From NCBI RefSeq assembly GCF_000429025.1, contig NZ_AUBB01000031.1:62001-126000 (forward strand): 64,000 bases of DNA, given 5' to 3'. Below, piece after piece: positions 25,403 through 59,728 of the stretch; positions within the stretch are counted from its first letter, which is position 1, and the number at the start of each line of letters is the position of its first letter. This DNA comes from Actinospineispora spinosispora DSM 44797. Its GTDB lineage: Bacteria; Actinomycetota; Actinomycetes; Mycobacteriales; Pseudonocardiaceae. The position numbers and the translations under genes are program-made. The notes beneath the pieces are model-generated. The model was not told where the DNA came from. It searched no databases and was given only the letters and a program-made list of their open reading frames with translations.

Positions 25403-25474
25403 GACACCGCGCACCGTAGGTCGACACCGCGCAGTGTGCACACCACGCGGTGTGAACCTACGGTGCGCGGTGTC
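25403..25474. repeat. 72-base palindromic element, full copy 1
   Basis: Outer arms are 19-base perfect inverted repeats (GACACCGCGCACCGTAGGT at 25403-25421 and its complement at 25456-25474). Inside are inner ACACCGCG/CGCGGTGT arms and a TGTGCACA centre, so the whole folds on itself. A second full copy is at 33151-33222 with the same length, and half-copies lie at 50435-50474 and 58658-58696. The match with copy 2 extends about ten bases to the left (CTTCGTGYTC). It ends 20 bases before the phosphotransferase start. Confidence 0.85.
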
Positions 25475-26390: not shown

Positions 26391-26493
26391 ATCGGCTTCC
26401 ACCACCGTGGATCATGTTGAGACACGTTCCATGCCCAGACGGCGCCACCATCCGCACCCTGCTCACTGCGGCACCACGGCAGAAGAGAGACAG

Positions 26494-27240: not shown

Positions 27241-27390
27241 CGCGTGACCTTAGCGGAACCCGCCGACACTTTTACCTGATCTTATGGTCTATATAGCGCG
27301 GCCCTGAGCATTCCGTCGTTGACTTCAGCCGCAGAGGAAATTCGCAGGTTCTGCCGTTCGAATATCCGTTCCCGAGTCATGGAGTCGACG

Positions 27391-28903: not shown

Positions 28904-28926
28904 GTAACCGCCCTCCAGAACAGGCG

Positions 28927-28966
28927 TGGCCGCTGATCCGCCCTCCCCTCGACGGGTCAGCGGCCA
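28927..28966. terminator. Stem-loop terminator after the small peptide
   Basis: A perfect 10-base inverted repeat (TGGCCGCTGA and TCAGCGGCCA) with a 20-base loop lies 23 bases after the peptide stop. There is no clear T-run, as is usual in high-GC actinobacteria. Confidence 0.6.
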
Positions 28967-29166
28967 TGCCGTCTTCCACCGAACCGCTTCCGCCCGACTG
29001 CCTTTATTACCGACTTGCCGATCGTTTATCCCGCCATTAAGCCCGCTGGTGATTCTGTACCGTACAGACGGACCGCGGCCAGGAACTGCGCACGGGCGCA
29101 CTCGTATCGGACCGTCCGCACACCAGCCGATTCGTGACGCGATCGCAAGGAGCGGGATCACCCCCG

Positions 29167-29901: not shown

Positions 29902-29999
29902 GTGACGGGTAGCCCGAGCGTGCCGAAGAGCCCGCTTCGTACGCAAGGCCCGCCGCTCCCCAGCAGCCCGGCGGTCTCGGACCCGTTCCCCGGTTCGCG

Positions 30000-31370
30000 G
30001 TGTCCGAGACCACCGGGCCACGCACGGTCACAGTCGGCGCCGGGATCGCGCCTGGCCTTACGGAGGCTCCAGTGGGTGGAATCCACAGCAAGATCGATGT
30101 AGGGAGGTCCCGTCGGCGACGGATCGACAAGCCGGCCAGCAGGGCATCGGCGGGCAGGATGTCGGCCGGTACGACGGTGCTGGACCGCGACCCGGAGCCC
30201 AGACCGGAACCCGACGAGCGTCCGACGCCGCGCGGCGATACCCGCCCACCGGTCCGGCAGACGGCCGAGCCCGACGCCGCACACCCGACCACGACGCCGA
30301 AGAAACCGAAACCGGCGAAACGCCCCGGTCGGACCAGGGCTCTGCTGCTCGAGATCGCCCTGTTCACCTTGGCGCTGGCCGGCGCGGGCATGATCGGAAT
30401 GCACCGCACCCGCCTGATCGGACTCGCACTGGTCGTGGCGTCACTCACTGCCGTCTACCTGCTGCGCAGACGTCGATCCGGTAGCCGCTGGGGAACCGCC
30501 ACCGCGTTCGCCGCGCTGACCTTCGCCGTGATCGGCGGCCTGGTGGTCACCATGGCCCCGGACGGCCCATTGCGTTCGGTGAAGCCCAGGGACGTGGGCT
30601 CCTGGGTCCGCTCCGCCGTGATCCAGGGCATCACGATGAAACCCCCACCAGGTCGCACGACGATGCCGGTGCGGGCGCCGATGACGCCGGACCCGGAACG
30701 GGAGCCCGCGGTTCCGGCGTTTTCCGCGCCCACACCGGCATCACCGACCCTTCCCCCGCCGCCGATCCCGGCGATTCCTCCGGTTCCCTCGACCCCACCG
30801 TTGCCGTCACCCCAACCCCCGCCGGTCCCACCGCCCGCACCGATACCGGCGGATCCGCCGTCGCCGCTGCCGTTCAACGAACCGCCGCCGGAGTCGCGCG
30901 AGAAGCCATCACCCGGGCCATCGCCCGAGAAGCCATCACCTGGGCCATCGCCGAAACCAGACCATATCGATGACGCCCCGGCGGACGATGCCCCGTCATC
31001 GGACCACTCAGACGACCGGTCAGACGACTCGAAGCCGAAATCCGACCACCACGTCAAGGATTCCGACCGGAATTCAAAGGACGAGGACGATCATCGGTCG
31101 AAGAAGTCCGACGACGACGATTCCGATTTCGGCGACCTGGCGCGCAGCATGCGCAGTGGCTCAGGGGATGAAATGGGCGGCGGATTCGGCGACCGGCCCG
31201 GTGTCAATTCAGGGAACACCGGCGGCGGCATGCACAGCAGCGGCAGTGGATTCGGCGGCCCCGGCGGCAGCGCCAACGGGTCTTCAGGAGCGGATTCCGG
31301 TGGCCCCTCCGGCGGGGGCAACGGCGGGAACGGCGGCCAGGGTGGAAACGGTGGAAACGGTTTCGGCTGA
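30000..31370 (+). CDS. Three-TM protein with Pro-rich, acidic and Gly-rich tail
   Basis: A 456-residue protein. Residues 1-115 are basic and Pro-rich (cytoplasmic), about 116-185 hold three hydrophobic segments, and the rest is a long extracytoplasmic tail. In order the tail is a poly-Pro stretch, a repeated PSPGPSPEK unit, an Asp/Ser/Lys-rich part (DDSKPKSDHH) and a Gly/Ser-rich end (GGNGGNGGQGGNGGNGFG). The start GTG 30000 is uncertain. Such an arrangement suits a wall-spanning anchor. It follows the secreted repeat protein on the same strand by 98 bases. Confidence 0.65.
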   Translation: MSETTGPRTVTVGAGIAPGLTEAPVGGIHSKIDVGRSRRRRIDKPASRASAGRMSAGTTVLDRDPEPRPEPDERPTPRGDTRPPVRQTAEPDAAHPTTTPKKPKPAKRPGRTRALLLEIALFTLALAGAGMIGMHRTRLIGLALVVASLTAVYLLRRRRSGSRWGTATAFAALTFAVIGGLVVTMAPDGPLRSVKPRDVGSWVRSAVIQGITMKPPPGRTTMPVRAPMTPDPEREPAVPAFSAPTPASPTLPPPPIPAIPPVPSTPPLPSPQPPPVPPPAPIPADPPSPLPFNEPPPESREKPSPGPSPEKPSPGPSPKPDHIDDAPADDAPSSDHSDDRSDDSKPKSDHHVKDSDRNSKDEDDHRSKKSDDDDSDFGDLARSMRSGSGDEMGGGFGDRPGVNSGNTGGGMHSSGSGFGGPGGSANGSSGADSGGPSGGGNGGNGGQGGNGGNGFG

Positions 31371-31376
31371 GTCCGC

Positions 31377-31691
31377 TCAGGCGGCGGGGCTGGTGTCGTC
31401 GATCCAGGCGGTCAATCGCTGGCCGGAGTGCAGCACCACGTTGCCCGCACGCAGCAGGCGCGTGATGTGACCGACGTTGGCCAGGCTGCCCAGCTCATCG
31501 GCATCAGTCGGGCTCACGCCTGAGGCCACCGGTGTCCCGTCGTGGTCGGTGACGACGAACCGGACGTGCATCCGCCGGCTCTCGCGGCGCGGCGCACCCG
31601 AGGCAGAACGGTCCAGCGGGACCGTCTCGTCTGCCGGTCGGAGGCACGGACCCGATGTGCCGACACATCGGTCATCTGCCAGAATAGTCAT
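31377..31691 (-). CDS. Small hypothetical protein, 104 residues
   Basis: ATG 31691 has GGGAG seven bases upstream and begins MTILADDRCVG. The C-terminal half (MHVRFVVTDHDGTPVASG and then LLRAGNVVLHSGQRLTAWID) reads as a compact beta-rich fold. No family recognised. It ends seven bases from the convergent Gly-rich protein gene and starts divergent from a membrane-protein gene. Confidence 0.6.
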   Translation of the reverse strand: MTILADDRCVGTSGPCLRPADETVPLDRSASGAPRRESRRMHVRFVVTDHDGTPVASGVSPTDADELGSLANVGHITRLLRAGNVVLHSGQRLTAWIDDTSPAA

Positions 31692-31826
31692 CGGACCACT
31701 CCCCGTTCTCGATTTTCCGCGAGTCGTGCGATTAGTGTGCGGGACCGGAGAATAGTCGAAGACTAAGCGATGCCTAAGGTTCAGTAACCACCGTTCGGTG
31801 ATTCGAATACTCGATATCGTCGAGAA

Positions 31827-32654
31827 ATGCCATCCCCAGCATCGCCGGATAGCGGATCGAAGCCGCCCTCGGACCCGCTGGTATCGGTCGACTTCGGCCA
31901 ATGGTGCCGACGGGTACTCAATTCCAGCCGTCGCGGTCTCGCCCGGCTGCTGCTGGTCCAGCTGATCGCGCAGGCGCTCGCCAGCGGGTGCACGGCTGTA
32001 GTCAAGCCGCTGCGCGCCGCGTCTCTCGACCCGTCGTGGACCGGTCCGTCGACCAGAGTGCTCGACGCCGCAAGTTCGGTGCTGTACATGGCGATCACGT
32101 CGTGCGCGGTGGTGGCCTCAGTCGTCCTGATGATCCGAGTCGCCGCGGGCCAGCCTTCGGGTGTGCGGCTGCTGGTTCGGATCATGATCCGAAGGACGCT
32201 CCCCTTGACCTTCTGGCTGGGCGTCGCGGGCTCGGGATATCTCCTGCTGGTGTGGCTCACCGCCATCGGCGGCTCCGATCCGCTGTACCTGGCGGTAGGT
32301 GTGTTCCTGTATCTATACGTCGTCTTCGGCGCCTCGCTGGTCGGTGTGATCGTGGTGGAGCGCAGGTTCTGGCCGCTCGGTCGATGCTTCGCCCTGATCC
32401 GCCATCGCTTCTGGGCGACCACCGGGCGGCTACTGCTCGCGCATCTGGCGTTCATGCTCTACTGGGCGGTCACCAGCTACCTGCCGGTCGACCGGCTCGG
32501 CCCGCTGTTGGGTGGACTGACTCTCATTCCGATCAACATCGTGGGCACCGCGGTGGTCCTGGTCAGCTACGCCGAGCTGCGCGCCCGGTCGGACCCGACG
32601 ACCACCACCCGCACCCTGGACGCGGAGCTGACCTCCGGGACTCAGCCGTCCTGA
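31827..32654 (+). CDS. Polytopic membrane protein, function unknown
   Basis: A 275-residue protein with about six hydrophobic segments between residues 40 and 255. The basic stretch VERRFWPLGRCFALIRHRFW before the last third is like that of actinobacterial DUF-type membrane proteins similar to glycerophosphodiester phosphodiesterase membrane domains, but I cannot assign a family. Its last 13 bases overlap the convergent PLDc_N-domain gene. Confidence 0.7.
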   Translation: MPSPASPDSGSKPPSDPLVSVDFGQWCRRVLNSSRRGLARLLLVQLIAQALASGCTAVVKPLRAASLDPSWTGPSTRVLDAASSVLYMAITSCAVVASVVLMIRVAAGQPSGVRLLVRIMIRRTLPLTFWLGVAGSGYLLLVWLTAIGGSDPLYLAVGVFLYLYVVFGASLVGVIVVERRFWPLGRCFALIRHRFWATTGRLLLAHLAFMLYWAVTSYLPVDRLGPLLGGLTLIPINIVGTAVVLVSYAELRARSDPTTTTRTLDAELTSGTQPS

Positions 32655-33061
32655 CCTCGTCCCTGGCGTCGCTGCTGTTCGGCGCGCTCCCGACACCGCC
32701 GCAGGAATTCAGCGTCCGCCTCCGGGTCCTCCGACGAGAACCGGCCAGGGCGGTCGTACTCGGGGAACTCAGGGCTGCGGCGCGCATAAGGCAAGGCTTT
32801 GGTGGGCGGGGCGACGCCGGTGGGGCGTCCCGCCACCAGCCAGACGATCGACCCGGCCAAGGGCGCTAGCACCACGAAGATCAACCAGACGAGCCGCGGC
32901 AGATTCCTGCACGCGTCGTCGTCGGTGGTCAGCACATCGAGGAGGCAGTACAGCCAGAGACAGAAAACCGCCAGGCCGACGAAGCCGTCCAGATAAAGCA
33001 CCGATACTCCTTCGAATAGTACGGCCGAGTTCAGGACAACATAGTCCCGCAGCGGGACCAT
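32642..33061 (-). CDS. PLDc_N-domain membrane protein
   Basis: A 139-residue protein with two membrane helices and the phospholipase D-nuclease N-terminal (PLDc_N) pattern: WLYCLLDVLTTDDDACRNLP, then LVWLIFVVLAPLAGSIVWLVAGRP. The tail is charged (RRCRERAEQQRRQG). In actinobacteria such proteins are common small membrane proteins of unknown role. The N-terminal 24 residues before the first helix may not be real, since GTG 33004 is an in-frame alternative. Confidence 0.8.
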   Translation of the reverse strand: MVPLRDYVVLNSAVLFEGVSVLYLDGFVGLAVFCLWLYCLLDVLTTDDDACRNLPRLVWLIFVVLAPLAGSIVWLVAGRPTGVAPPTKALPYARRSPEFPEYDRPGRFSSEDPEADAEFLRRCRERAEQQRRQGRGQDG

Positions 33062-33150
33062 GCCGAACCACTATTCACGCCATATCAACGGCAAGTTTTA
33101 TGACTCGCTTAGCGCAGACATAATCCATTGCGCAGTACGGCTTCGTGTTC

Positions 33151-33222
33151 GACACCGCGCACCGTAGGTTCACACCGCGCGGTGTGCACACTGCGCGGTG
33201 TCGACGTTAGGTGCGCGGTGTC
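33151..33222. repeat. 72-base palindromic element, full copy 2
   Basis: Same length as the copy at 25403 and about 85 percent identical. The outer left arm GACACCGCGCACCGTAGGT is identical; the right arm has diverged (GTTAGGTGCGCGGTGTC), so selection is not keeping the palindrome perfect. It lies between the PLDc_N gene and the 3' end of the hydrolase gene. Confidence 0.85.
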
Positions 33223-33264
33223 GCAGGGTCGCCGAGCGCGAAATCAGCCCATTCCATGGTCGCA

Positions 33265-37420: not shown

Positions 37421-38713
37421 TCAGAGGAAGTCCGCGAACGCGGCGGCGCCACGGAGCTGGTCGAGGTCGGCCCGGTGCCGCCGGGAGGAATGTCCTCGGG
37501 ACACGTCGAGGGCACGCTCGATCGAGGCGACCTCCCGCTTGGCCCACTCCGCGATCCTCGTCGGATCCCCGGCCAGGTCATCGAGCGCTTCGGTGTGTCG
37601 ATGACGCCGAGTCGCGCCGTGCGACGATCCGCCGAGGCCGAGCCCGTCGGTCACCCGTCCGAGCGGGCGGGTGACATTCGCCAGCGAGGAGGTGACGCCC
37701 TCCGAGCGGCGGGCGCCGGAACGCACCGCCTTCTTCCGGGCGGCCTTGCCCACCGGGGTGTGCCGGACGAGGTTCAGCACCGGATCGGTCACCGTCGTGG
37801 TCCGGTCACCGGCATCCGGGAGTGGAACGGGTGCGCCGCCCCCTGCGGCCGCCTGGCTGCTCAATGCCGAGACGACGGCCGAACGCTGCTGCTCCAGCTC
37901 TGATTTGCGCCGTAGCATCTCCCGCACCTCGGACGGCGGGTCACCCTGGCGCCGCGACGCGGGCAACTGCTCCCAGGCCCGCTGCGCGTTGGCGATCCGT
38001 GCTAGCTGACCATCCAACGAGCTCAACGTGACCTTCGCCCGGTTCACCCAGTCGCCGTCGGTCACGATGCCGGGGCGCGTCGAGTTGTGTGGAGCTGCCT
38101 GGTAGGTCTCCGTGCCGCGCTCGGTCAGCCATCCGCCGACACTGGCACCGGCCACGATGCCCGCGGCGCTGAGCGCGGCCAGCATCCGCCGTCGTCGCTG
38201 ATCGGTGCGCCGAGTGTGACGCGCGGTCCGGCCACGCTGGCTCTCGACGATCCGCTGCAGGTCCGGGCACGTCGGATCCAGATCTTGGACCAGACGTTTC
38301 GCCCACACCGATTCGCTGGGAGACGGCAGTACCGCCACCCCGTAGCGACCCTCGTAGCTCGGATCCGCTTCGGGGCGGTGGTGCAGGTCGAGCCCGGCTG
38401 CGGGGGCGAACTGCTGCTCCACCAGCATGCGTTCCCAGGATCTCGGTTTCACCAGTACCGCGACACCACCCGCTGCCGACGACCACGTACCGGCCTCGGC
38501 ATACCGCGCTTCGGGATACGACACCTCCGCATGCGGCACCTGAGCGAACGGCACTGTGAGGGCGTCGGACGCCACCCGGACAGCCAGGCGGGCCTTCCTG
38601 GCCTCCGTCCGATGGGCCGGCCGACAGTACTTCCGTGGGGGCTCGCCGGTCAGCTGCTCGACGGGCGTCTCGCAACCGGGCAGTCCGCACGGACTAGTTG
38701 AACCTTGACTCAT
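37421..38713 (-). CDS. Membrane protein with N-terminal zinc-ribbon-like motif
   Basis: A 430-residue protein. The N-terminus has C9, C14, C30 and H34 in a pattern CxLPGC-(15)-C-x3-H, a likely small zinc site. The same pattern starts the MacB-like permease at 56371. A single hydrophobic segment (MLAALSAAGIVAGASVGGWL) lies near residue 180, preceded by RRTDQRRRR, so the zinc motif should be cytoplasmic. The outer part has a coiled-coil-like stretch (LRRKSELEQQRSAVVSALSS) and a basic C-terminus. ATG 38713 has a GGAGAGG site. Function unknown. Confidence 0.7.
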   Translation of the reverse strand: MSQGSTSPCGLPGCETPVEQLTGEPPRKYCRPAHRTEARKARLAVRVASDALTVPFAQVPHAEVSYPEARYAEAGTWSSAAGGVAVLVKPRSWERMLVEQQFAPAAGLDLHHRPEADPSYEGRYGVAVLPSPSESVWAKRLVQDLDPTCPDLQRIVESQRGRTARHTRRTDQRRRRMLAALSAAGIVAGASVGGWLTERGTETYQAAPHNSTRPGIVTDGDWVNRAKVTLSSLDGQLARIANAQRAWEQLPASRRQGDPPSEVREMLRRKSELEQQRSAVVSALSSQAAAGGGAPVPLPDAGDRTTTVTDPVLNLVRHTPVGKAARKKAVRSGARRSEGVTSSLANVTRPLGRVTDGLGLGGSSHGATRRHRHTEALDDLAGDPTRIAEWAKREVASIERALDVSRGHSSRRHRADLDQLRGAAAFADFL

Positions 38714-49824: not shown

Positions 49825-50432
49825 CCGGCGATCTGTCGAGCGCTTTCGGAGCCTCCGCCGCGTCCCGCGCCGGCCTGGACGGGCTGCTGCCGCCCCGCCC
49901 CCGGCCGGAGACGCCGACGGCACGCTCCGGCGAGCGCCCCGCGGCGACCATCCAGGTCGAACCTGCCGAGAAGGCGCCGACCCGACCGAAGACGCCGCCA
50001 CCGTCCCGAGGCGCGGGCGCCGGTCGGCGGCTGCGGCCCGCACCCGCCGCGATCGCGCAGAGCCAGAGCTACCAGGTGACGGTCTACGTCCTGCCGGAAG
50101 CGAAGCTGGCGGCGCGGCAGCGCCGGGACCGCGACGGTGTCACCAACGCCGAGGTGGCGTTCGACGCGATCGACGCGACCTTCACCGACCTGCAGGAACT
50201 GCTGCGAGCCCAGCGCACCACAGAGCGCGCGGAGAACAGCCTGTTCCCGCCGAGACGCACCCCACGACGCAAGGCGAAGGTGCAGTCCCGCCGGGTCCTG
50301 TGGTCGATCCAGGCCACCGCCGACGAACTCGCGGTGCTGGACGAACTGATGGCCGAGATGGGCGCCGAATCGCGCAGCGAACTCATCGCGGCCGCGATCG
50401 AGGCACACCTGCTCACCAAAAACCGCAGGTAG
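49821..50432 (+). CDS. ParA-partner DNA-binding protein
   Basis: A 203-residue protein encoded in a GTGA overlap with parA. The first 80 residues are Pro/Arg-rich and disordered. The C-terminal part has two helical repeats that each look like a ribbon-helix-helix unit: YQVTVYVLPEAKLAARQRRD...NAEVAFDAID is abbreviated here to VYVLPEAKLAARQRRD, and the second is VLWSIQATADELAVLDELMA followed by SRSELIAAAIEAHL. Such proteins replace ParB in small partition systems. Function follows from position and fold; the binding site is not shown. Confidence 0.75.
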   Translation: MTGDLSSAFGASAASRAGLDGLLPPRPRPETPTARSGERPAATIQVEPAEKAPTRPKTPPPSRGAGAGRRLRPAPAAIAQSQSYQVTVYVLPEAKLAARQRRDRDGVTNAEVAFDAIDATFTDLQELLRAQRTTERAENSLFPPRRTPRRKAKVQSRRVLWSIQATADELAVLDELMAEMGAESRSELIAAAIEAHLLTKNRR

Positions 50433-50434
50433 GG

Positions 50435-50474
50435 GAACACCCCGCACCTTGTGGTCACACCGCGCTATGTGTAC
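50435..50474. repeat. Half-copy of the palindromic element, left end of MacA/MacB unit
   Basis: Matches the left half of the 72-base element (ACACC, CGCACC, then TCACACCGCGC and a GTGTAC centre). Compared with the reverse complement of the half-copy at 58658-58696 it is identical at 31 of 39 positions plus one extra base, and both share CGCGCTA, which the full copies lack. It ends two bases before the MacA stop codon. Confidence 0.75.
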
Positions 50475-50475
50475 G

Positions 50476-52449
50476 TCAGGAGGGCGGCGGCAGGATGATC
50501 TGGCCGAAGGGTAGGCCGGAGAGCACCTGGGTGGTGGAATCGCCGACCATGCCGGGTTGGAACTGCCTGAGTTGGGTCTTCCCGTCCGGGGTCGGGACGG
50601 TGACGTACCAGTTCCCGTCCTGCTTGGTCACCATGTCGTTGGGTACGACCAGCACGTTCTCGATGGCGTTGGCCAGCACCGCCGTCTGCGCGGTCATGCC
50701 CTCCTTCATCCGGGGGTCGGACTGGGCCAGCTGGATCGTGGCCTGGTAGTTCGTCACGCCGGACACGTTGACGCCCCTGGGGGCCACGGCGAGTACCGTC
50801 CCGGTCCCGACGAGCCCGGGGATCGCGTCGAACGTCACCCGAACCTGCTGACCCGCCTGAACCTTCGCCGCATCCGATTCCTCGAAGGGCACCACGGCCT
50901 GGAAGGAGTTGATGTCGGTGAGCACCATGAACGCCCCAGCACCCGGCCTGGTCGCGGACAGCGAACCCGCTGAGGAGTTACCCGACTGGTCGCTGGTGGC
51001 CGCCGCGCCCACTCCAGGAATCTGCGCGTTGGTACCCGGAGCCAATGCGGTCTGCGCGCCGGATCCGGAGCTGACGAACTCACCCACCGCCCCGTTGATC
51101 ACCGAGATCGTCCCGGCGACCGGGGCGGTCAGCGTCGTCTCGTCCACCTTCCGCTGTGCTTCGGCGACCAGAGCCTGCTGCGAGCCCACCGCCGCCGCCT
51201 GGCCCGCGATCCGGGACGGCCGGTCCGCATGCGACTGGCGTTCCAGGTTCTCCGCCTGCACGACCGCCTGGTGAGCGTTGTCGACCGCCAGCTTGCCCTG
51301 GACCAGGTTGACGTCGCGCTGCTTCTTCGACTGCTCGTAGGCGGTCTTCGCGTTGGTCGCATCGCCCTTCGCGCGTTCGGCGGCCATCTTCGCGTTGTTG
51401 GTGTCGTTGTCGGCCTGCTGCCGCGCAGCGGTGCACGGGCCGCTGGTCAGGAAGCTGACCGGGCGCACGGTGGCGGTCGATTCGCCCTGGTAGGAGCTGT
51501 GCGAGTCGTGCCAGCCGCCACCGCCACCCCGGTTGCCGCCACCCCATCCCCGACCGCCGGAGTCGCCGCCGCCCCAGGAGCCACGCCCACCGGGGCTGCC
51601 ACCCGGGCTACCGCCACCGGGGGCGCCGCCTGCTTGGCCCGGGCTGCCGGCCGAACCCGACGCTCCGGGGGCGCCGTAGGAACCGGCGGTGCCTGGCGTG
51701 CCGTATCCGCCGCCCGAGGACCCGCCGCCGGGGTTGCCTGCCGGAGCACGACCGGCGTTGCCGTAGGAACCTCCTCGGGGGTTGCTCATGGATCCGCCGC
51801 CGGACCCGCCGCCGAGGTTGCCGAAGGAGCCGCCTGAGCCACCGCCCTGCTCGTACGACGATGGGCACGGCACGGAGTAGTCCTCGACGTCTCCCGCGTG
51901 GTCCCGGGTGAGCTGCACCTGGCGCTGGGCGAACTCCAGCGCCACCTGGTTGCGCTGCACCGTGGTCCGGTCCAGCTCCTGCTGCCTGGCCACACTGCTG
52001 CGTGTGGTCTGCTCGATCTGCCTCGCCTGATCGAGGGACCGCTGATTATTGGGCACGTCGAGGTTGTTCACCAGCAGATCCAGCTGGGCCTTCTCCTGGG
52101 TCAACAATGCCTGCTGCCGGACGAGTTCCTGCTGGGGATTGAAAGCATCCTGTTTCGCCAGAACCTGACCCGGGGTGACCTTGTCACCGACCCGGACATT
52201 CAGCTCGGTCAACCGGCCGGTCTCGAGGAAACCCAGGTTGCGGCTGGCGACCGCCGTCAGCGCGCCGGAGGACAGCACCCGGGTGGAGACCGAGCCCCAC
52301 TCCGCTCTGGTCGGCTGGGCCGGCGGGGGCGGCGGACCGCCGCACGCGGCCGCGGCTGAAGCCAATACCAGTACCAGCGACATCGTCCGCGCGACGCGGA
52401 TGGCTCGACGGTCTCGGACCAGGGTGGGGCGAGCAGGATGGTCCGTCAA
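50476..52449 (-). CDS. MacA/HlyD-like efflux adaptor with Gly-rich insertion
   Basis: A 657-residue membrane-fusion protein with a lipobox AAAAC (C36). In order: a first lipoyl half (RVGDKVTPGQVLAKQDAF, about 86-103), a first coiled-coil helix (110-185), an insertion of about 110 residues made almost only of Gly, Ser, Pro and Ala (201-313), a second coiled-coil helix (about 340-430), the second lipoyl half (LTAPVAGTISVINGAVGEFV), a beta-barrel domain and a C-terminal domain. C195 and C339 flank the insertion and could form a disulfide at the hairpin tip. The start is TTG 52449; ATG 52383 is a weaker choice. Family adaptors are about 400 residues. Likely partner is the permease at 56371. Confidence 0.85.
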   Translation of the reverse strand: MTDHPARPTLVRDRRAIRVARTMSLVLVLASAAAACGGPPPPPAQPTRAEWGSVSTRVLSSGALTAVASRNLGFLETGRLTELNVRVGDKVTPGQVLAKQDAFNPQQELVRQQALLTQEKAQLDLLVNNLDVPNNQRSLDQARQIEQTTRSSVARQQELDRTTVQRNQVALEFAQRQVQLTRDHAGDVEDYSVPCPSSYEQGGGSGGSFGNLGGGSGGGSMSNPRGGSYGNAGRAPAGNPGGGSSGGGYGTPGTAGSYGAPGASGSAGSPGQAGGAPGGGSPGGSPGGRGSWGGGDSGGRGWGGGNRGGGGGWHDSHSSYQGESTATVRPVSFLTSGPCTAARQQADNDTNNAKMAAERAKGDATNAKTAYEQSKKQRDVNLVQGKLAVDNAHQAVVQAENLERQSHADRPSRIAGQAAAVGSQQALVAEAQRKVDETTLTAPVAGTISVINGAVGEFVSSGSGAQTALAPGTNAQIPGVGAAATSDQSGNSSAGSLSATRPGAGAFMVLTDINSFQAVVPFEESDAAKVQAGQQVRVTFDAIPGLVGTGTVLAVAPRGVNVSGVTNYQATIQLAQSDPRMKEGMTAQTAVLANAIENVLVVPNDMVTKQDGNWYVTVPTPDGKTQLRQFQPGMVGDSTTQVLSGLPFGQIILPPPS

Positions 52450-52931
52450 CTCCGCCTGCCTTTCCCGCCCGTGAAGCGCACTCGGTCAGGTGATCGCATC
52501 AGCCCAGGCTCCGTGAACCGAATTCAGGGCACACCTTTCCCGGCCAGAAAAATCTCATTATCGCCCCAGAAGTGCGAAGTGACGCTAACAGGGTCATTGC
52601 GATATCGACAAGCCGAGCCGACTAAAGCATTCTCAACATCGGTTTAACAAACACATAAGGCGTTTTCTCCGCCGATCCTGTCTCCATCCATTGTGTGTGG
52701 AAAACTTTGAAATCGGCCGCCGGTCATCCATGTGGGTGGTCCGCTGGGAGGTGCGGATCGGTAGCATCGCGACCTAGCGGTGGGTTGCGCCGTGTGACGA
52801 GTATCCACAGTCAACCCGCCTCGACCCGCTCCGGTCACAGCTCGGTGAGTTCCACCCCAGCGCCGGACACCGCTTCCGCGTACTCGGTTCTCGACAGACG
52901 GCCCGCGAGCTCGGGCGATCGGTGGCTTCCC
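52450..52931. other. 482-base divergent spacer between MacA and secreted-protein gene
   Basis: No gene is supported. The centre (52540-52690) is AT-richer than its surroundings and must hold divergent promoters for the adaptor and the secreted-protein genes. An AACACATAAGGCGTTTTCTC stretch near 52650 is the most AT-rich part. No clear operator was seen. Confidence 0.4.
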
Positions 52932-53225
52932 ATGACAAGCAGGACACACGTTTCCGGACTGGTCGGCGCGGCGGCGCTGCTGTGCCTCGCCGCGACATCC
53001 CTCCCGCACACCGCACCCGCCGCCACGGGCACATCCGCCCACGTGGCCACGATCGCGATGCTGACCGCCGAGCCGGGTGCTGGTGATGATGACGGCTCCG
53101 GCCAGGCGGCGCCGCCGCCGCCAGCGCCGACCCCGCCGCCGACGCCGGCGGGGCCTGGCAGTGGTTATCTCCCAGAGCAAGACAAGTACGGGACGGACCC
53201 CACCCAGCAGTCCACAGGCGGCTGA
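52932..53225 (+). CDS. Small secreted protein, VATxA-leader family, member 1
   Basis: A 97-residue protein with signal MTSRTHVSGLVGAAALLCLA and cleavage near APAA. The leader region GLVGAAALLCLAAT ... HVATIAML matches that of 53282 and 54386, which share GAAA, LAGA and an HxVAT-like segment, so the three form a small family with divergent ends. The mature end is acidic (AGDDDGSG), then Pro-rich (APPPPAPTPPPTP), then GYLPEQDKYGTDPTQQS. Function unknown. Confidence 0.6.
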   Translation: MTSRTHVSGLVGAAALLCLAATSLPHTAPAATGTSAHVATIAMLTAEPGAGDDDGSGQAAPPPPAPTPPPTPAGPGSGYLPEQDKYGTDPTQQSTGG

Positions 53226-53281
53226 GGACTTCTCCGGCGCTCAGCCCGTGTTCGGGCAGCCCGATGATTGGCGGATTCTCG

Positions 53282-54301
53282 ATGACGAGTTCAGCACCCA
53301 TGAACGGCCGGCGGCCCGGTCATCACCCGCCCCCGGCGGGCGCGCCGGTAGTGCGAGTCCTCGGCGCCGCGGCGATGCTGTGGCTGGCCGGTGCCTCGCT
53401 CACCCAGCCCTCCACCGACCAAGCCGGTCCTGCCGTGCAGGTGACACTGGCCGCAACCATGACAGCGGCGCCCGACGACGGAACCACCGACGACGACACC
53501 AGCACCGGGGTATCCGCCCCGGTGACGAACACGAACCCCGGCAGCGGCTCCAGTACGCCGTCCACCCCCAAGAAGCTGCCGGATGGGATCATCGACAAGG
53601 GGGACCACTACGTCTTCCGAGGTACCGGCGCGACCACACGCGGCGGTAGCACCAACAAGGAGCTGGGGCTCCAAGACGATTCCATGCGAGCCGCAGCATC
53701 AGGCCTTCCAGTCGGCCGAGGTGGCGGCCTGCAAAAGGGCGTGAGCCATGAAACGCACGAGTTCACCCCCAATCCCTCGACCTTCAGTGTGCCGAACCCC
53801 GGCCTCGTCCAGGGCCAGGAGATCGTGGACGACAACGGCAAGACGACCGGCGTCGTTGACGCTAACGGCAAGGTGGTACCCCCGAGCACCAACCCCGCGG
53901 TCAGTAGTCCCGCGCCGAATCCCGGCCTCACCGAGGGCCAAGAGATCGTGGACGACAACGGCAAGACGACGGGCGTCGTCGACGCCGGCGGCAAGGTGGT
54001 CCCGGTGGCCAACACTCCCACAAAGCCGGCCGCACTCGAGACCCCCCTCGAGCCGGCGGCGACCGACACCTCCGCACCAGAGACGACACGGCCTGCCGAC
54101 CCGGTGGCGACCGATATCACCCCATCGACCGGCACCACCCCCGCACCGCCAGAACAACCCACCGGCGGAGCGGCTTCCGATACTGCCATGACAGCCGCCC
54201 CCGCCGAGGGCTCTACCGCACTCGCGGCCCCCACACCTGCGGCGGCTCCCGCGGTCGAGGCTCCACCTCCGGCTGCAGCCGCGCCTCCGCCTGCCGGGTG
54301 A
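53282..54301 (+). CDS. Secreted repeat protein, VATxA-leader family, member 2
   Basis: A 339-residue protein with an N-terminal signal/anchor (VVRVLGAAAMLWLAGASL, residues about 23-41). The middle holds two near-identical 28-residue repeats beginning NPGLVQGQEIVDDNGKTTGV and NPGLTEGQEIVDDNGKTTGV, each closing with a GKVV turn and separated by a Pro/Ser linker. DDNGKTTGVVDANGK resembles a beta-hairpin unit. The C-terminus is Ala/Pro-rich. An in-frame ATG at 53264 would add six residues. It lies 56 bases after the previous gene and ends at a strong terminator. Confidence 0.65.
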   Translation: MTSSAPMNGRRPGHHPPPAGAPVVRVLGAAAMLWLAGASLTQPSTDQAGPAVQVTLAATMTAAPDDGTTDDDTSTGVSAPVTNTNPGSGSSTPSTPKKLPDGIIDKGDHYVFRGTGATTRGGSTNKELGLQDDSMRAAASGLPVGRGGGLQKGVSHETHEFTPNPSTFSVPNPGLVQGQEIVDDNGKTTGVVDANGKVVPPSTNPAVSSPAPNPGLTEGQEIVDDNGKTTGVVDAGGKVVPVANTPTKPAALETPLEPAATDTSAPETTRPADPVATDITPSTGTTPAPPEQPTGGAASDTAMTAAPAEGSTALAAPTPAAAPAVEAPPPAAAAPPPAG

Positions 54302-54316
54302 TAAGCGGTCGGCAGA

Positions 54317-54371
54317 ATCACCAGGGCCCGAGACCGGTTCCCGCCGGGGAACGGTCTCGGGCCCTGGTGAT
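54317..54371. terminator. Bidirectional terminator between convergent secreted-protein genes
   Basis: ATCACCAGGGCCCGAGACCG pairs with CGGTCTCGGGCCCTGGTGAT, a perfect 20-base stem with further pairing (TTCCC/GGGAA) around a small GC-rich loop. It serves the plus gene ending at 54301 and the minus gene ending at 54386. Confidence 0.9.
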
Positions 54372-54385
54372 CGCTGGGAGAGGCC

Positions 54386-54799
54386 TCAGCGGTTCGCGTC
54401 AAGCGCCATCAACGTATTGGGCGAAACGGGAGCGTAGGTCACCGGCATCTGGTGGGACGAATAACCGTCGTTGATCTGAGGAATCTGATTGTTGAGCTGC
54501 GCCAGGTCCTGGGCCGTCGGCTGCGGAGACATGGCGGACGTGGTGTTTTCGAATGGGGAAGCCAACGGGCCGGCCGCTTCAGTGCCCGGGGCGGCGTTCG
54601 GGTCCGGCAGATCGGTCGGCGACACAAGCGCGACCGTCGCCACCGGGTGGTGGGCGCCGGTGTCGGACGGTGTGGCCCCGACCGCCGTCGCTCCGGCCAG
54701 CCAGGCCAGCGCCGCCGCGCCCACCAGTCCCGCCATCGGCAGGCGGGCACGCGTCGAACCCGTGGAATCGTGCGTGTCATGCCGGAAGGGGAAAGCCAT
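54386..54799 (-). CDS. Small secreted protein, VATxA-leader family, member 3
   Basis: A 137-residue protein starting at ATG 54799, set by the GAGGTGA site before it. The leader LPMAGLVGAAALAWLAGATA, then HHPVATVALVSPTD, is the clearest match to the two plus-strand neighbours. The mature part has SPQPTAQDLAQLNNQIPQIN and NTLMALDANR. It is downstream of a small membrane-protein gene whose stop lies inside its ribosome-binding region. Function unknown. Confidence 0.6.
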   Translation of the reverse strand: MAFPFRHDTHDSTGSTRARLPMAGLVGAAALAWLAGATAVGATPSDTGAHHPVATVALVSPTDLPDPNAAPGTEAAGPLASPFENTTSAMSPQPTAQDLAQLNNQIPQINDGYSSHQMPVTYAPVSPNTLMALDANR

Positions 54800-54804
54800 T
54801 ACGG

Positions 54805-55038
54805 TCACCTCGTCTGCTCGTTCGTTGATTGGTCGGTCGGCTGCGCGGGTCGTGCTGTGCTGTCCGGGGGCGGTAGGACGGTCAGGATCAGCGCGGTGAT
54901 CACTAGCACCGCGATCAGACCGATCGCGATCTTGTACCGCAGCGCACCGAACGGGAAGTAGTTTCGGCGGCCTCGGCGCTTCGAGCGCCTCGGCGAGCGC
55001 CGCCGCCGGGTTCGTCGGTCCGTTCGCGTTCGGCTCAC
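54805..55038 (-). CDS. Small basic single-TM protein
   Basis: A 77-residue protein: a strongly basic N-terminus (RRTRRRRSPRRSKRRGRR), one membrane helix (YKIAIGLIAVLVITALILTV) and a short Pro/Thr/Gln-rich tail. It should be anchored with the basic end inside. It lies eight bases after the next upstream gene and five bases before the following one, so the three minus-strand genes 55856-54386 form an operon. Confidence 0.65.
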   Translation of the reverse strand: MSRTRTDRRTRRRRSPRRSKRRGRRNYFPFGALRYKIAIGLIAVLVITALILTVLPPPDSTARPAQPTDQSTNEQTR

Positions 55039-55046
55039 CGCACTGG

Positions 55047-55856
55047 TCAGCTGTCGTCGGACTTGTGCTTCAGCGCGTCGCGGATCGTGTCGGCGGCATC
55101 AGCGATCGTGGCGGCCGCCTCAGTGAACTTCTCGCCGAGATCGTGCATGGCGGAAGTCGCACCGGCCGCCGCATCGCCGCTGGTCTGGGCGGACGCACCG
55201 GCAGCGTCGGTGGGGCTCGGCGGACCGGGTGGGCTAGGTGCCTCGGGAGTGGCGGGCGCTTCAGGGGCGGCCGGTTCCTGTTCCGGCGCCGCACCCCCGG
55301 CCCCACCCGAACTCTGGCTCACGTTCTGCGCCGCGGCGCCCGCTTTCGCGGTGGCGTCGGCGGCGCCCGCCAAGGCCTCGGCGGCCTTCGCACCGCCGCT
55401 GGGGTCCCCTTCGTCGGTCGGGGCTCCACCGCTGGTCATGTGGTCGGCCTTGAACATGTCGGCGACACCGAACAGCTTGGCCAGCCCGGCGAGGAACCCA
55501 CCGCCCTCGCCGTCCGACCCGTGCGCGCTGGTCACGACGTCTCCACTCGCGCCATTGCCCGTGGCGTTGTTCGCGTGCGCAGTGCAGAACGCGAGACAGT
55601 TGGCGTCGGCCTGGGCGCCACTGTCGCCGTCCGCACCGCTGTCGCCGCTGTCGCCCTCGCTGGAGAGCAGCGGATGACTGAACGCCATCGGCGCCACCGC
55701 CGAGGTGGGCTGCGCAGACGCCTGGAAAGCCGGGCTCAGCACCGCCCCGCCCAACAGCGCCAGCGTGGCGCCCGCGGTGACCCAGGCCCGTGGCCTGCCT
55801 GGTTCGGTTCGGCCTCGGGTGGCGGCCGTGGTGCGATCTGTCCGGGTGAGCATCAT
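55047..55856 (-). CDS. Secreted Gly/Ala/Pro-rich protein
   Basis: A 269-residue protein with a signal peptide (WVTAGATLALLGGAVLSPAF, cleavage near ASA). The mature part has an Asp/Gly/Ser-rich repeat (GDSGDSGADGDSGAQAD), one CLAFC cysteine pair, a segment FLAGLAKLFGVADMFKADHM that could be an amphipathic helix, a Pro/Glu-rich middle and a C-terminal helix TEAAATIADAADTIRDALKH. ATG 55856 or 55853 is preceded by GAAGG. It is first in its operon and divergent from the MacB-like gene. Function unknown. Confidence 0.65.
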   Translation of the reverse strand: MMLTRTDRTTAATRGRTEPGRPRAWVTAGATLALLGGAVLSPAFQASAQPTSAVAPMAFSHPLLSSEGDSGDSGADGDSGAQADANCLAFCTAHANNATGNGASGDVVTSAHGSDGEGGGFLAGLAKLFGVADMFKADHMTSGGAPTDEGDPSGGAKAAEALAGAADATAKAGAAAQNVSQSSGGAGGAAPEQEPAAPEAPATPEAPSPPGPPSPTDAAGASAQTSGDAAAGATSAMHDLGEKFTEAAATIADAADTIRDALKHKSDDS

Positions 55857-56168
55857 GGTCAGCAACCTTCGACACAGTGAACCGACGAGAACGGGGAACC
55901 GCGTCACGTGCCCGTGCATCCGGGCACGTGACGCAGCGGCGGAGGGGGTGTCTCCTGGGGCGTCGTGGCACCCGGGAACACACCTCGGCCGAGAAGTCCA
56001 GGCTCACCGCGCGTGGCCAGCGATAAACCTCTGCATTTCCTGAACCGATTGTTTCAGTTTTTCACCGAAACATCCGGATGGAACCAGTCTAACTATCGGC
56101 CAGAATAACGATCCTTCGCCTCGCGCGCTACTCCCACTCGCCTGATGAAGCATCACCCACTCGTGCAA

Positions 56169-56219
56169 TAGTCTAGAGTGAACTCGGACTCCGTGTTTTA
56201 TGGTCTAGAGTCCGGAGTC
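56169..56219. promoter_or_regulatory. Direct and inverted repeats upstream of the MacB-like gene
   Basis: In the 514-base divergent spacer 55857-56370, TAGTCTAGAGT (56169-56179) and TGGTCTAGAGT (56201-56211) are direct repeats 32 bases apart, three helical turns. Interleaved, GACTCCG (56187-56193) and CGGAGTC (56213-56219) form an inverted repeat. This looks like an operator about 150 bases upstream of the permease start. The rest of the spacer is AT-rich in places and shows nothing else. Confidence 0.5.
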
Positions 56220-56370
56220 AGTCAAGAATGATCGGAAATGATCAAGGCGGGGCGCGATCGAGCACTTCGACTGTTTACCGTCGTCATGAAGATGGCTCCC
56301 CGTCGGTAGACGCCAGACCAAATTCTTCTCAAACGAAGCATCTGGTCACTCAGGTCACAGGAATTCGTCG

Positions 56371-58332
56371 ATGACAACTATGGATGTGGACGACACCGAA
56401 TCGACCGCGACCGACGACGGTGTACGGCTGTGCGCGCTGCCCGGCTGTGACACCCCCCTGCCGCCTTCAGCCGATGAGACGAAGCGGTACTGCTGTCCGG
56501 CGCATCGCAAGTCCGCCCGCAGGCATCGACGCGGCACGTCAGCCCCGGCCCACACCCGGGTGGCGAACGAGACCGACCATGGCGCTCCCCCCGAACCGCT
56601 CCATGACCATCAGCGCACCCATGGCTGGGACGGCGAATCGGATGATCAACCGACCCTGCCGGGGATCCCGGTGGTCCCGCCGCCGAGGCCCGAGGTCGAT
56701 CCCACCGCGACCTGGATCACTCAGCCGATGGCCGCGGTCGGGGACCTCTCGACGAACGGCGCCGCGGCGAAGGAGTCCCCGTCGTGGTGGCCCGCGTTTG
56801 CGCCGCGCCGGGGACTGCGCACCCTGTGGTCGCGCACCACTGATCCATACGCCAGTGCCTGGACCAAGCGCCGGGCGCGGCGGGAGGCTGAGCGGCTCGC
56901 CGAGGCGGCGAGTGCGGCGGCGAGTGCCGCCGAGGCGGCGGCGATCGAGGCGGATGCGGCCGCGATGCTGGCCAGGCGGCCGCTGGTCGGTGAAGAGCCG
57001 CCGCCGGGCAGGACCCGCCGCCGGAGCGCGGGTGCGCGGGTGCGCTCGGTGGGGATCGCACCGAACCTGGTGTCCTCGACGGCATGGGCGGGCCAGACCG
57101 GCGAAGCGCTGGTGGCCGCGGTGCACAGCCTGAAGAACAACCGGCTGCGGTCGTTCCTGACCACGGTCGGGATCATCGCCGGTGTGGCGAGCGTTATCCT
57201 GCTGGTCGCGATGGGCGACGGCATGACACTCCAGTACCAGAACCAGGCCGACAAGCTCGCCAACCAGATCAACATCAGTCCGGCGCGCAGTACCGTCCCC
57301 AGCGGTGGGTCACCGAGGAACCTGACCGATGCCGACGTCGACGCGCTGCACAACAAGTCCCGCGCCCCGCACGTCACCGACGTCTCCCCGGTCATCGCCA
57401 GCAATATCGCGGTCACCGCCGGCCAGGCGAAGAACCGGGCCAACCTGGTCGGCGTTCAGCAGAACTATCTGCGCCTGATGGATCGGCACATCGTCGCCGG
57501 ACGCTGGTTCACCGAGTCGCAGATCACCGGCAGCGACCGGGGCGCGGTACTCGGACCACAGGCGGTCGCCCTGCTCTACGGCCCGAAAGCCGATCCGCAC
57601 AAACTCATCGGAAAACCGATCCGGCTGTCCCACAGTACGTTCACCATCATCGGTGTCATCGACTCGAACGGGCAGGCCGACAATCTGGTCGCGGTCCCGT
57701 TCGGCGCCGCCCGGTCCTATCTCACCGGAAACGACGGCGGCCGGGTCGACTCCATCGTGGTCAAGTCGACCAGCCTCGCCACACTGCCCAGGGCGATGAC
57801 CGAGATCGCGACCGTCCTGGACGAACAGCACTTCATCCATTCCGTCGCGGACCGCGACTTCAACATCAACAACTACACCGAGTCCATCCGAAAGAGCCAG
57901 AACTTCGTCCACTACCTGAGCATCTTCATCGTCGCCATCGCGGCGATCTCGTTGTTCGTCGGTGGCGTCGGCGTCGCGAACATCATGCTCGTCTCGGTCA
58001 CCGAGCGGACCAGGGAGATCGGCATCCGCAAGGCCGTCGGAGCCAAGACGAGCGCGATCCTGCGCCAGTTCCTCTCCGAGTCGGTCATGCTCACCGCGCT
58101 GGGCGGGCTGGTCGGTGTCGCTCTCGGCATCGGTTCCACGAAGCTGGCCGAGGTCGTGCTGCCGCACTACGGAGCGGGCGTCCCGAACAGTGACGTCCCG
58201 CTGCCGATCCTGACTGCCCAGCCGGTCCTCGTCGCGTTCGGGCTGAGCCTGCTCATCGGGCTCGCCGCCGGTGGCTATCCGGCGCACCGGGCCGCCCGGA
58301 TGCCCCCGATCGAGGCCCTGCGCTTCGAATGA
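56371..58332 (+). CDS. MacB-like ABC permease with N-terminal zinc-ribbon motif
   Basis: A 653-residue protein. Residues 21-45 hold CALPGC and, 14 residues later, a C-x3-H (C21, C26, C41/C42, H45), a likely zinc ribbon. About 150 disordered and Ala-rich residues follow. The MacB permease proper starts with AVHSLKNNRLRSFLTTVGII (first TM), continues with the extracytoplasmic core domain (INISPARSTVPSG; ILAGRW-type VAGRWFTESQITGSD) and ends with the FtsX domain (VGGVGVANIMLVSVTERTRE, GIRKAVGAKTSAILRQF). No ATPase domain or adjacent ATPase gene is present, so it needs one from elsewhere. The adaptor at 50476 is the likely partner. Confidence 0.87.
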   Translation: MTTMDVDDTESTATDDGVRLCALPGCDTPLPPSADETKRYCCPAHRKSARRHRRGTSAPAHTRVANETDHGAPPEPLHDHQRTHGWDGESDDQPTLPGIPVVPPPRPEVDPTATWITQPMAAVGDLSTNGAAAKESPSWWPAFAPRRGLRTLWSRTTDPYASAWTKRRARREAERLAEAASAAASAAEAAAIEADAAAMLARRPLVGEEPPPGRTRRRSAGARVRSVGIAPNLVSSTAWAGQTGEALVAAVHSLKNNRLRSFLTTVGIIAGVASVILLVAMGDGMTLQYQNQADKLANQINISPARSTVPSGGSPRNLTDADVDALHNKSRAPHVTDVSPVIASNIAVTAGQAKNRANLVGVQQNYLRLMDRHIVAGRWFTESQITGSDRGAVLGPQAVALLYGPKADPHKLIGKPIRLSHSTFTIIGVIDSNGQADNLVAVPFGAARSYLTGNDGGRVDSIVVKSTSLATLPRAMTEIATVLDEQHFIHSVADRDFNINNYTESIRKSQNFVHYLSIFIVAIAAISLFVGGVGVANIMLVSVTERTREIGIRKAVGAKTSAILRQFLSESVMLTALGGLVGVALGIGSTKLAEVVLPHYGAGVPNSDVPLPILTAQPVLVAFGLSLLIGLAAGGYPAHRAARMPPIEALRFE

Positions 58333-58395
58333 TGCCGTTTGTTGTCGCCGGCCGGCGGTCGGGTACGCGGGCTGCGCCCGACAGCCCTCAAGCCA

Positions 58396-58456
58396 TGATC
58401 ACCACGATCTTGTAGCTGTTTTCAGGCGAAAAACAGCTACCAGACCGTGGTGATCA
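58396..58456. terminator. Large two-part hairpin after the MacB-like gene
   Basis: TGATCACCACG pairs with CGTGGTGATCA at the outside, and GTAGCTGTTTT with AAAACAGCTAC inside, separated by a small bulge on each side. It lies 64 bases after the stop. It may be a terminator or the trace of a palindromic mobile sequence. The remainder of 58333-58720 holds no gene that I can support. Confidence 0.7.
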
Positions 58457-58657
58457 AGAAAACCGGTATGCGTGCTTCACTTGTGACTGGTGGGGCTGGC
58501 TTGAGAAGTCTCCGGGCGCAGCCCGCGCGCCCGACCGCCAGCCGACGAACGCACCCGCGCCAAACCCCACTCTCCCCGGTCCAGACCGCAGTGGACAGAA
58601 CCACCACCAAAACCGCAGGTCAACAACATGATCGAACTAAGGTAAGTCGCATTGACG

Positions 58658-58696
58658 TGCACGTAGCGCGGTGTGGACGTGAGGTGCGCGGTGTCA
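58658..58696. repeat. Half-copy of the palindromic element, right end of MacA/MacB unit
   Basis: Matches the right half of the 72-base element (GTGCAC centre, GCGCGGTGT, then GAGGTGCGCGGTGTC). It is inverted relative to the half-copy at 50435-50474. The two centres are GTGTACGT and GTGCACGT. Confidence 0.75.
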
Positions 58697-58720
58697 CCCA
58701 CCAGCGTCCTGGCCACCAAC

Positions 58721-59728
58721 TCAGCTGCGGCTGGTGACGAAGCCTTCGCGGATCAGCCAGTTGCGCGCCACCCGCGACCAGTCGGTGCCGTGGACGTCGG
58801 ATTCGGCGTTCAGGTCGACCATCACCTCGTTGGTGAGCCGGTCCATCACCGGTTTGAGTACGTCAGCGATCTGTGGGTAGCGTGCCAGTACGTCGGAGCG
58901 GATGGACACCGCCGCTTTGTACTGCGGGAAGAAGTGCTGATCGTCGGCGAGCAGGGTCAGGTGCAGCGCCTCGATCCGGCCGTCGGTTGCGAACACGACA
59001 CCGAACTGGCACGGGTTACCGGATGCGGTGGACTGGTAGATCGTCCCGGTGCCCATCACGTGCAGGTTCGCCGGCGGGAAGCGCATCCCGTAGCGGGCGG
59101 CCATCCCGGGCAGTCCGTCGCTGCGGCTGCTGAACTCGGTCTCCGAGCACACGGTGGCCTGCTGGGGATTCGCCTTGGTGAAGGCGGCCAGGTCAGACAG
59201 CGCGCGCAGGCCGTAGCGGGCGGCCGCCGAGGGGCCCATCGCGATGGCATAGGTGTTGCTCGCCCGCGCCATGTCCACCCAAGCGATGCCGTGCGCGACG
59301 TCCGCGCCTGCCACCGCCCGGAACATCTCGCCGGAGTCCGACAGTGGCTCGGTGTGGCGGTTGTAGTTGATCCACGAGGTGCCGGTGTACTCGGGATACA
59401 GGTCGATCTGGCCGGTCTGCAGCGCCGTGCGGGCGCTGTTGGAACCCTGGATGTTGGTCAGGTCGTGCACCTTCATCCCTGCGGCCTGGAGTGCGTAGAT
59501 GAACAGGTATCCGACGTTGATGCTGTCGCTGAAGTCCTTGGAGCCGACGGTGATCGGCACGTCGGTCAGCTCGGGGACCGGCCGGATCGAACCGGGCCCC
59601 ACCTCGGTGGGGACCGAGTTCCCCGAGCTCAGCCCGCAGCCCGCGATCAGCGGGCCGAGCAGCGCCGCGACCGCCAGCACCGCTGCCACCCCGCCCCGGA
59701 GCCCACGCATATTAACCACCGCGTTCAC
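58721..59728 (-). CDS. Osmoprotectant ABC transporter substrate-binding lipoprotein (OpuCC/ProX-like)
   Basis: A 335-residue quaternary-ammonium-type binding protein with lipobox IAGC. It has ITVGSKDFSDSINVGYLFIY, matching the family's VGSKxFTE start, LQTGQIDLYPEYTGTSW as the middle motif, and CQFGVVFATDGRIEAL near the end. Known family ligands are glycine betaine, choline and carnitine. GTG 59728 overlaps the permease gene stop as GTGA. The long open frame upstream of this start lies over the permease gene and is not coding. Confidence 0.92.
   Translation of the reverse strand: MNAVVNMRGLRGGVAAVLAVAALLGPLIAGCGLSSGNSVPTEVGPGSIRPVPELTDVPITVGSKDFSDSINVGYLFIYALQAAGMKVHDLTNIQGSNSARTALQTGQIDLYPEYTGTSWINYNRHTEPLSDSGEMFRAVAGADVAHGIAWVDMARASNTYAIAMGPSAAARYGLRALSDLAAFTKANPQQATVCSETEFSSRSDGLPGMAARYGMRFPPANLHVMGTGTIYQSTASGNPCQFGVVFATDGRIEALHLTLLADDQHFFPQYKAAVSIRSDVLARYPQIADVLKPVMDRLTNEVMVDLNAESDVHGTDWSRVARNWLIREGFVTSRS

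Follow-up and report, generated by a model that had tools for sequence, protein, structure and literature searches.

The genes for a MacA-like adaptor, several secreted proteins and a MacB-like permease in Actinospineispora spinosispora DSM 44797 are enclosed by two halves of a 70-bp palindromic element, and this raises the question whether the halves are the ends of a mobile unit or the remains of the site in which the cluster came to lie. The cluster is part of a stretch of 64,000 nucleotides of contig NZ_AUBB01000031.1 (the window; positions are counted from its first letter). The reading that we favour, with moderate confidence, is that one element was split by insertion of the cluster. 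The halves are then probably target halves and not transposon ends, and the matching ends would be the two halves of the landing site.

The original prediction had placed inverted half-elements, as well as copies of the element centre, at both ends of the cluster, and both are indeed present. The ends form an inverted repeat pair of 47 nt (50432-50478 / 58653-58699) with 79 % complementarity; on a recount, 37/47 positions were alike. The centre is found as ATGTGTACGT at 50467-50476 and as ACGTGCACGT at 58655-58664, which are alike at 8/10 positions. The left half occupies the gap between the stop codon (50432) of a partition gene of the ribbon-helix-helix (RHH) type and macA, and no partner arm was found near the canonical offset of 41 bp. 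The macA stop codon runs across the left junction: one of its bases is the final T of the retained centre, and the other two belong to the enclosed segment. At the C-terminus, MacA ends at about the same point as three homologues, so that macA is essentially complete. Since full elements elsewhere also often fit snugly between stop codons, the snug fit alone does not discriminate. A CGCGCTA variant that was thought to mark the two halves is absent from the two full copies of the element in the window but is not special, as it occurs in 31/76 full elements genome-wide. A direct repeat, CACCAAAA(A)CCGCAGGT, was spotted by eye at about 50416-50432 and 58605-58621.

Both halves belong to a dispersed family. 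Its consensus consists of four 9-nt ACACCGCGC motifs; each arm has two of these, spaced by 20 bp, and the arms are inverted around GTGCAC. The half pattern was found at 170 places in the 9.5-Mb genome at ≤3 mismatches and at none with a reversed-pattern control, which puts the family far above chance. A blastn search with the copy at 33141-33229 gave 96 matches in the genome, both strands counted. The fetched stretches (L labels) cover 153 of the 170 half-pattern places and contain 76 full dyads. An arm offset of 36-46 was permitted in the first round and exactly 41 bp was required afterwards for the 76-copy set; the first 69 full copies all had an offset of exactly 41 bp. The two full copies of the window form a repeat pair (25402-25475 / 33150-33223) of 74 nt that is 95 % complementary. 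Among the 62 genomes of the genus, the element was present in this one only (110 places, ≤2 mismatches). In 26 relatives searched at ≤3 mismatches, G014 alone matched besides this genome, with 10 matches of 2 or 3 mismatches each. Exact pattern matches were absent from viral contigs, and five public plasmid records contained short matches. Full-text literature on palindromic intergenic repeats in Nocardia yielded nothing, and further full-text searches gave nothing relevant among the papers listed.

According to a simple codon-based gene caller, 75/76 full copies are intergenic and one is inside a gene. Counted by distinct gap, the element occupies 25 convergent, 31 tandem and 10 divergent gaps, plus the one gene. 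The convergent share of 25/66 element gaps compares with 29/177 background gaps (p=0.0008), the background being gaps of ≥75 bp in the regions fetched around MacB matches, two regions from the window included. In a second comparison over all fetched regions, convergent gaps made up 21/61 gaps with the element vs 46/317 without it (p=0.0007). Selection for a hairpin was considered and rejected: within elements 27.87/35 pairs were matched, vs 27.78 ± 0.17 after shuffling. As the arms do not covary, a conserved repeated sequence, perhaps a protein site, is suggested more than a selected stem. Mobilization as a repetitive extragenic palindromic (REP) sequence by a REP-associated tyrosine transposase (RAYT) was likewise rejected, since the Y1 transposase profile (Y1_Tnp, PF01797) had 0 matches in the genome, while the control was positive in 5/14 genomes. 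The family is thus like REP sequences and bacterial interspersed mosaic elements (BIMEs), without the tag and size of the described classes and without a RAYT.

Other copies of the element were noted in passing. Tandem 20-bp arm extensions occur in L228:3253-3442, L235:2733-3222 and L199:3228-3357; these are fairly uniform within an array and differ between arrays. Close pairs of full copies were also seen on C30 (7.4 kb apart, 3 differences) and on C2 (1.1 kb apart, 0 differences).

Halves without a partner are rare. Ten halves without partner or extension were flagged in the fetched stretches, and four of these read as truly lone, namely the two in the window, one on C19 (L256:19391) and one on C1 (L261:3195). 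The others are array edges (L186, L191 and L195) or chance or degenerate matches (L197, L222 and L259). In the window, the left half lies at the left and the right half at the right with their centres facing, which is the geometry of one cut element. Under random placement, a correctly oriented pair within 8.3 kb has a probability of 0.0026 for 4 lone halves, 0.020 for 10 and 0.080 for 20, in a calculation that was post hoc and ignores the clustering of repeats. When the two halves are rejoined, the resulting element differs at 7 positions from its nearest real copy, and the median among real copies is also 7. It has the commonest combination of arm types, G/T, which was seen in 34/76 copies vs 25 expected. 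The ordinary look of the rejoined element is compatible with a split and argues for it weakly.

The right half is joined to a second repeat, called R2, a nested non-coding sequence that fills the stretch between the macB stop codon and the half. R2 modules gave 88 blastn matches in the genome, many of which are the two strands of one hairpin. The core hairpin (containing GATCACCACGGTCTGGTAGCTG, 58393-58466) is a dispersed repeat itself, with dozens of genome matches. At gathering scores, Rfam yielded nothing in the window. Four Rfam matches at E≤1 in 58200-58800 (three microRNA families and one snoRNA) were far below these scores and were taken as chance matches to long hairpins. The R2 tail ends in GGCATTG, and in GCATTG in the window. 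Five copies have an intact tail (the window, C19, L266, L267 and L269), and all five continue into palindrome sequence; a profile made from these tails found no sixth in the fetched sequence. In the window and on C19, the tail passes directly into the centre and one half of a 70-bp element.

In the remaining copies, the palindrome is of a second family, D, which has a 72-bp palindrome with CGCACAGAG twice per arm at 20-bp spacing. Its layout is that of the 70-bp element, with an unrelated motif. The exact outer D motif had 9 distinct matches in the searched sequences, vs 0 for the reversed control. In L266, the R2 tail runs into the centre and a complete D half, and both D halves flank the repeat, so that one D palindrome carries R2 between its halves. 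In L267 and L269, a centre-like stretch with one exact D motif comes after the tail, and in L264 an R2 copy has a lone D half at its other edge. Lone D halves were seen four times (once in L264, twice in L266 and once in L271), always in loci picked for R2; stretches not picked for R2 contain full D copies only. Because its tails run into palindromes and D halves lie around or beside its copies, R2 gives the impression of a repeat that inserts into palindromes, in many cases at the centre.

From these observations we infer that the two halves in the window were once one element, and likewise the order of events and the action of a mobilizing enzyme. One lineage-specific 70-bp palindrome would once have occupied the gap in which the partition gene and the OpuC operon converge, and an insertion would have cut it at the centre, leaving centre sequence on each side. 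The right end of the inserted segment would be R2, which elsewhere also lies inside palindromes, and macA, with its 3' end, would form the left one. On this view, the MacA-secreted-MacB cluster would be cargo that arrived with R2 or later; a two-step history, with R2 entering the element and the cluster following, or a single insertion with cargo would do equally. The split is supported in that it accounts for the geometry, for the centre retained on both sides and for the R2 junction. The original prediction had considered one element split by insertion with a short duplicated target. The geometry, the rarity of lone halves, the R2 junctions and L266 all speak for this proposal, which stands unproven. 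ParA and OpuC, which are found in 29/62 and 49/62 genomes of the genus at E≤1e-30, are neighbours only here and in none of the 61 others (coordinates compared by eye).

A number of observations weigh against this reading. Chimeras made of halves from different copies look nearly as ordinary as the rejoined element, with a median of 8 differences to the nearest copy. The candidate target duplication has 2/10 mismatches and is palindromic in any case, CA/TG is all that the segment's own two ends have in common, and the GC content of the segment (0.684) does not contrast with that of its surroundings (0.668 and 0.692). At its left edge, R2 meets macB instead of the left half, and the present arrangement is therefore not the work of R2 alone. 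C19 has the same junction of R2 with a half, but a left half was found neither within 19.4 kb on the left and 13.7 kb on the right nor in the matches listed for that contig; the presence of a right half next to R2 is thus not in itself a sign of a split. Neither R2 next to macB nor C19 without a left half is explained by a split. The lone half on C1 has an R2-type hairpin on its outer side and not at the centre, and in L271 R2 sits off centre in a D arm. At one mismatch, the D motif had 25 matches vs 16 in the control, which is not clearly above it, so that inexact single D motifs mean little. No mobilizing enzyme was identified, the genome-wide search having covered Y1_Tnp only.

The best surviving alternative, to which we give a smaller but substantial share of belief, is that the halves are parts of independent mosaics. 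Separately truncated REP/BIME-like copies would lie at 3' gene ends, the right half being a module of an R2-plus-half mosaic and the left half having been eroded up to the macA stop codon, with the MacAB genes as residents. This agrees with the 75/76 intergenic full copies, with the enrichment in convergent gaps and the many copies that lie snugly between two stops, with the mosaic nature of R2 itself and with the C19 junction that has no partner. It would, however, need two rare lone halves to have fallen by accident into the split geometry (P=0.0026 to 0.020 for 4 to 10 halves), both broken just past the centre, and it leaves unexplained why R2 tails run into palindromes and why D halves lie around R2 in L266. 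Two full elements that flanked the cluster and each lost the inner half by deletion would be an improbable origin. Palindromes are prone to deletion, and the neighbouring block at 25.4-33.2 kb is flanked by two full copies, but two separate events would have had to end at nearly the same position in the centre, and the right junction is a specific R2 tail that is also found on C19.

The least probable explanation, which we regard as very unlikely, takes the halves for the terminal inverted repeats of a MacAB unit that was mobilized in trans: the ends are inverted and similar, and the full copies at 25404 and 33152, 4/70 apart, also flank a 7.7-kb block with a MacB gene, but the complete palindrome lies at dozens of unrelated intergenic sites, and the element was present at ≤4 mismatches in 0/18 of the other MacB-search regions of this genome. 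These regions were obtained with the permease, which has 29 matches in this genome, 27 in G011 and 0 to 7 in 24 other genomes searched. On reading, 24 of the 29 cover the core, three match the ribbon only, and a single larger FtsX-type ORF accounts for the remaining two. Of the 20 regions that were fetched from this genome, two are shorter than 20 kb, owing to contig ends or to the range requested, and two come from the window; among the other 18, 17 show a MacB gene. The terminal repeats and the further units with the same ends that the original prediction had envisaged are thus not supported: the ends belong to a dispersed family, and halves also occur on C19 and C1. The latter two are lone halves at unrelated loci and agree in part with the outcome named beforehand as speaking against a mobile unit, namely half elements scattered around unrelated genes. 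In G011, 0/20 regions have the element; since its genome has none at all, these regions show only that such genes do without it.

Within the cluster, the predicted gene content holds for the adaptor, with weak matches of the HlyD/MacA type, and for the permease, with its MacB_PCD and FtsX domains (PF12704, 1e-35; PF02687, 6.1e-20), while three secreted ORFs are without a Pfam match. The thresholds were E≤0.001 for Pfam (three secreted ORFs) and E≤0.01 for NCBIfam (two of them). Against the NCBIfam MacB equivalog, the permease scores 186 bits, under the cut-off of 966. Between the halves there is no ATPase domain and no match to an ATP-binding cassette (ABC) protein; the closest such gene, that of the OpuC ATPase, lies on the opposite strand, 2.2 kb past macB. 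No transposase was found among the five unit proteins scanned against Pfam, and no dedicated search was made. Judged from the sequence, the cluster probably encodes an adaptor and a permease of the envelope that act together on the secreted proteins encoded beside them, with an ATPase borrowed from elsewhere. The coordinates of all features are collected in Table 1.

Table 1 Features of the split locus, of its repeats and of its genes (window positions unless preceded by the label of a fetched stretch)
Feature	Position	Strand	Remarks
Left half of 70-bp palindrome	50437..50476	+	29-nt arm 50437-50465 and 11 nt of centre 50466-50476; arm with 2 mismatches to pattern
Right half of 70-bp palindrome	58655..58694	-	11 nt of centre 58655-58665 and 29-nt arm 58666-58694; arm with 0 mismatches to pattern
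Segment between the halves, putative insertion	50477..58654	.	8,178 bp; bounded on both sides by retained centre sequence
R2, nested non-coding repeat of ~320 bp	58333..58654	+	Core hairpin near 58393-58466; tail ending in AAGTCGCATTG, common to four other places
Full copy of 70-bp element	25404..25473	.	Repeat search and pattern match
Full copy of 70-bp element	33152..33221	.	4/70 differences from copy at 25404 (best orientation)
Full D copies	L139:191-262, L145:4021, L150:15767, L210:7369, L211:765		One 38-bp offset in 5/5; stretches not chosen for D
MacA/HlyD-like adaptor, apparent lipoprotein (lipobox by eye)	50476..52449	-	Weak HlyD/MacA-type matches; stop codon 50476-50478
Small secreted protein	52932..53225	+	Start codon assigned by eye; ORF 52695-53225
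Secreted Pro/Ala-rich protein with internal direct repeat	53264..54301	+	No Pfam or NCBIfam match
Secreted protein, signal peptide resembling those of neighbours (by eye)	54386..54808	-	No Pfam match
Secreted protein	55047..55919	-	No Pfam or NCBIfam match
MacB-like permease without ATPase domain	56371..58332	+	MacB_PCD 261-481, FtsX 522-646; N-terminal Cys-rich ribbon by eye

MacB genes without an ABC gene within 2.5 kb are common, with 18/23 in the fetched regions of this genome and 17/21 in those of G011; the permease of the window is outside the 18, given the OpuC ATPase at 2.2 kb. A MacA gene lies within 6 kb of 4 (this genome) and 3 (G011) of these genes. The other fetched regions in which MacA was matched (L142, L145, L165 and L171) have an ABC gene next to the permease. 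Among the fetched regions, an adaptor and a permease without an ABC gene in the cluster were found here only. Relatives of MacB are present in 778 public plasmid records, all at <60 % identity. A peptide-pattern scan of named genomes, which can miss relatives, gave best segments of ≤37 % identity, except for one C-terminal fragment with 47 %.

Some further observations concern the proteins. The three secreted proteins encoded in 52932-54808 share a similar signal-peptide stretch (LVGAAAL..LAGA.., by eye), which for two of them is visible as an inverted DNA repeat. The ribbon CALPGCD..YCCPAHRK.. of the permease (56371-56583) was also seen in L138, L139, L140 and L158-L161, in or near a subgroup of ATPase-less MacB permeases, and a ribbon-like motif is present at 38588-38689 of the window. 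The 7.7-kb block at 25404-33221, between the two full elements, contains a MacB_PCD ORF without the FtsX part (27319-28365), an ORF for a glycine-rich peptide of 51 aa (28748-28903) and secreted proteins. An APH-family ORF at 25434-26072 matches positions 13-181 only of the 239-position Pfam model before its stop codon.

If one element was indeed split, the half elements are the scar of an insertion, and what look like the ends of a mobile unit can be part of its target. A genome-wide census is needed before inverted similar ends around a gene cluster are called terminal repeats. The interest of the locus lies more in the palindrome families and R2 than in MacAB. With dozens of intact copies, two families and several nested cases, the genome is a natural test set for the choice of palindrome centres by non-coding elements. 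A wider and more doubtful proposal is that R2-type repeats are palindrome-targeting mobile elements able to carry cargo, with the two palindrome families of the same architecture (ACACCGCGC and CGCACAGAG) as landing pads and the MacA-secreted-MacB cluster as a cargo-bearing example.

Several known systems resemble parts of this locus. As in MacAB-type exporters and relatives that combine an ABC protein, a permease and an adaptor, a MacB_PCD and FtsX permease is clustered with an HlyD/MacA-like adaptor. The cluster differs from these exporters in having no ATPase domain or ABC gene, in the N-terminal ribbon and in the secreted proteins encoded between adaptor and permease. The element, D and R2 are short palindromic non-coding repeats with several to tens of copies, like miniature inverted-repeat transposable elements (MITEs) and composite transposons. 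Unlike in those systems, no autonomous copy or transposase was identified (genome-wide, for Y1_Tnp), and other MacB regions are not bordered by the halves.

The likeness to REP/BIME sequences, as these are described in the available portion of the source (PMC3733652), lies in the dispersed and intergenic location of the element, its enrichment in convergent gaps and near stop codons, its restriction to one lineage and its occurrence in mosaics with other repeats. The units of the described classes measure 20-40 bp and have one end marked by a GTAG or CGTC tag; here, the unit is 70 bp with four 9-nt motifs in all, spaced by 20 bp within each arm, and the CGTC tag is present in 54/152 arms and GTAG in 4. 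Unlike for the GTAG class described there, this genome has no Y1 transposase; CGTC-class REPs are also said there to be without a dedicated one (PMC3733652). According to the portion available of a second source, the insertion sequences (ISs) IS1397, ISKpn1, IS621, ISPsy8 and ISPpu9/10 insert into REP sequences, and ISPsy8 always does so at the same point (PMC1525189). Here, the half is adjoined by the non-coding 320-bp R2, beyond which lie 8 kb of cargo genes, and no transposase was found (genome-wide, for Y1_Tnp), in contrast to the REP-inserting IS elements covered there (PMC1525189). The form of the proposed event would be the same as in these elements, namely an insertion inside a palindromic repeat.

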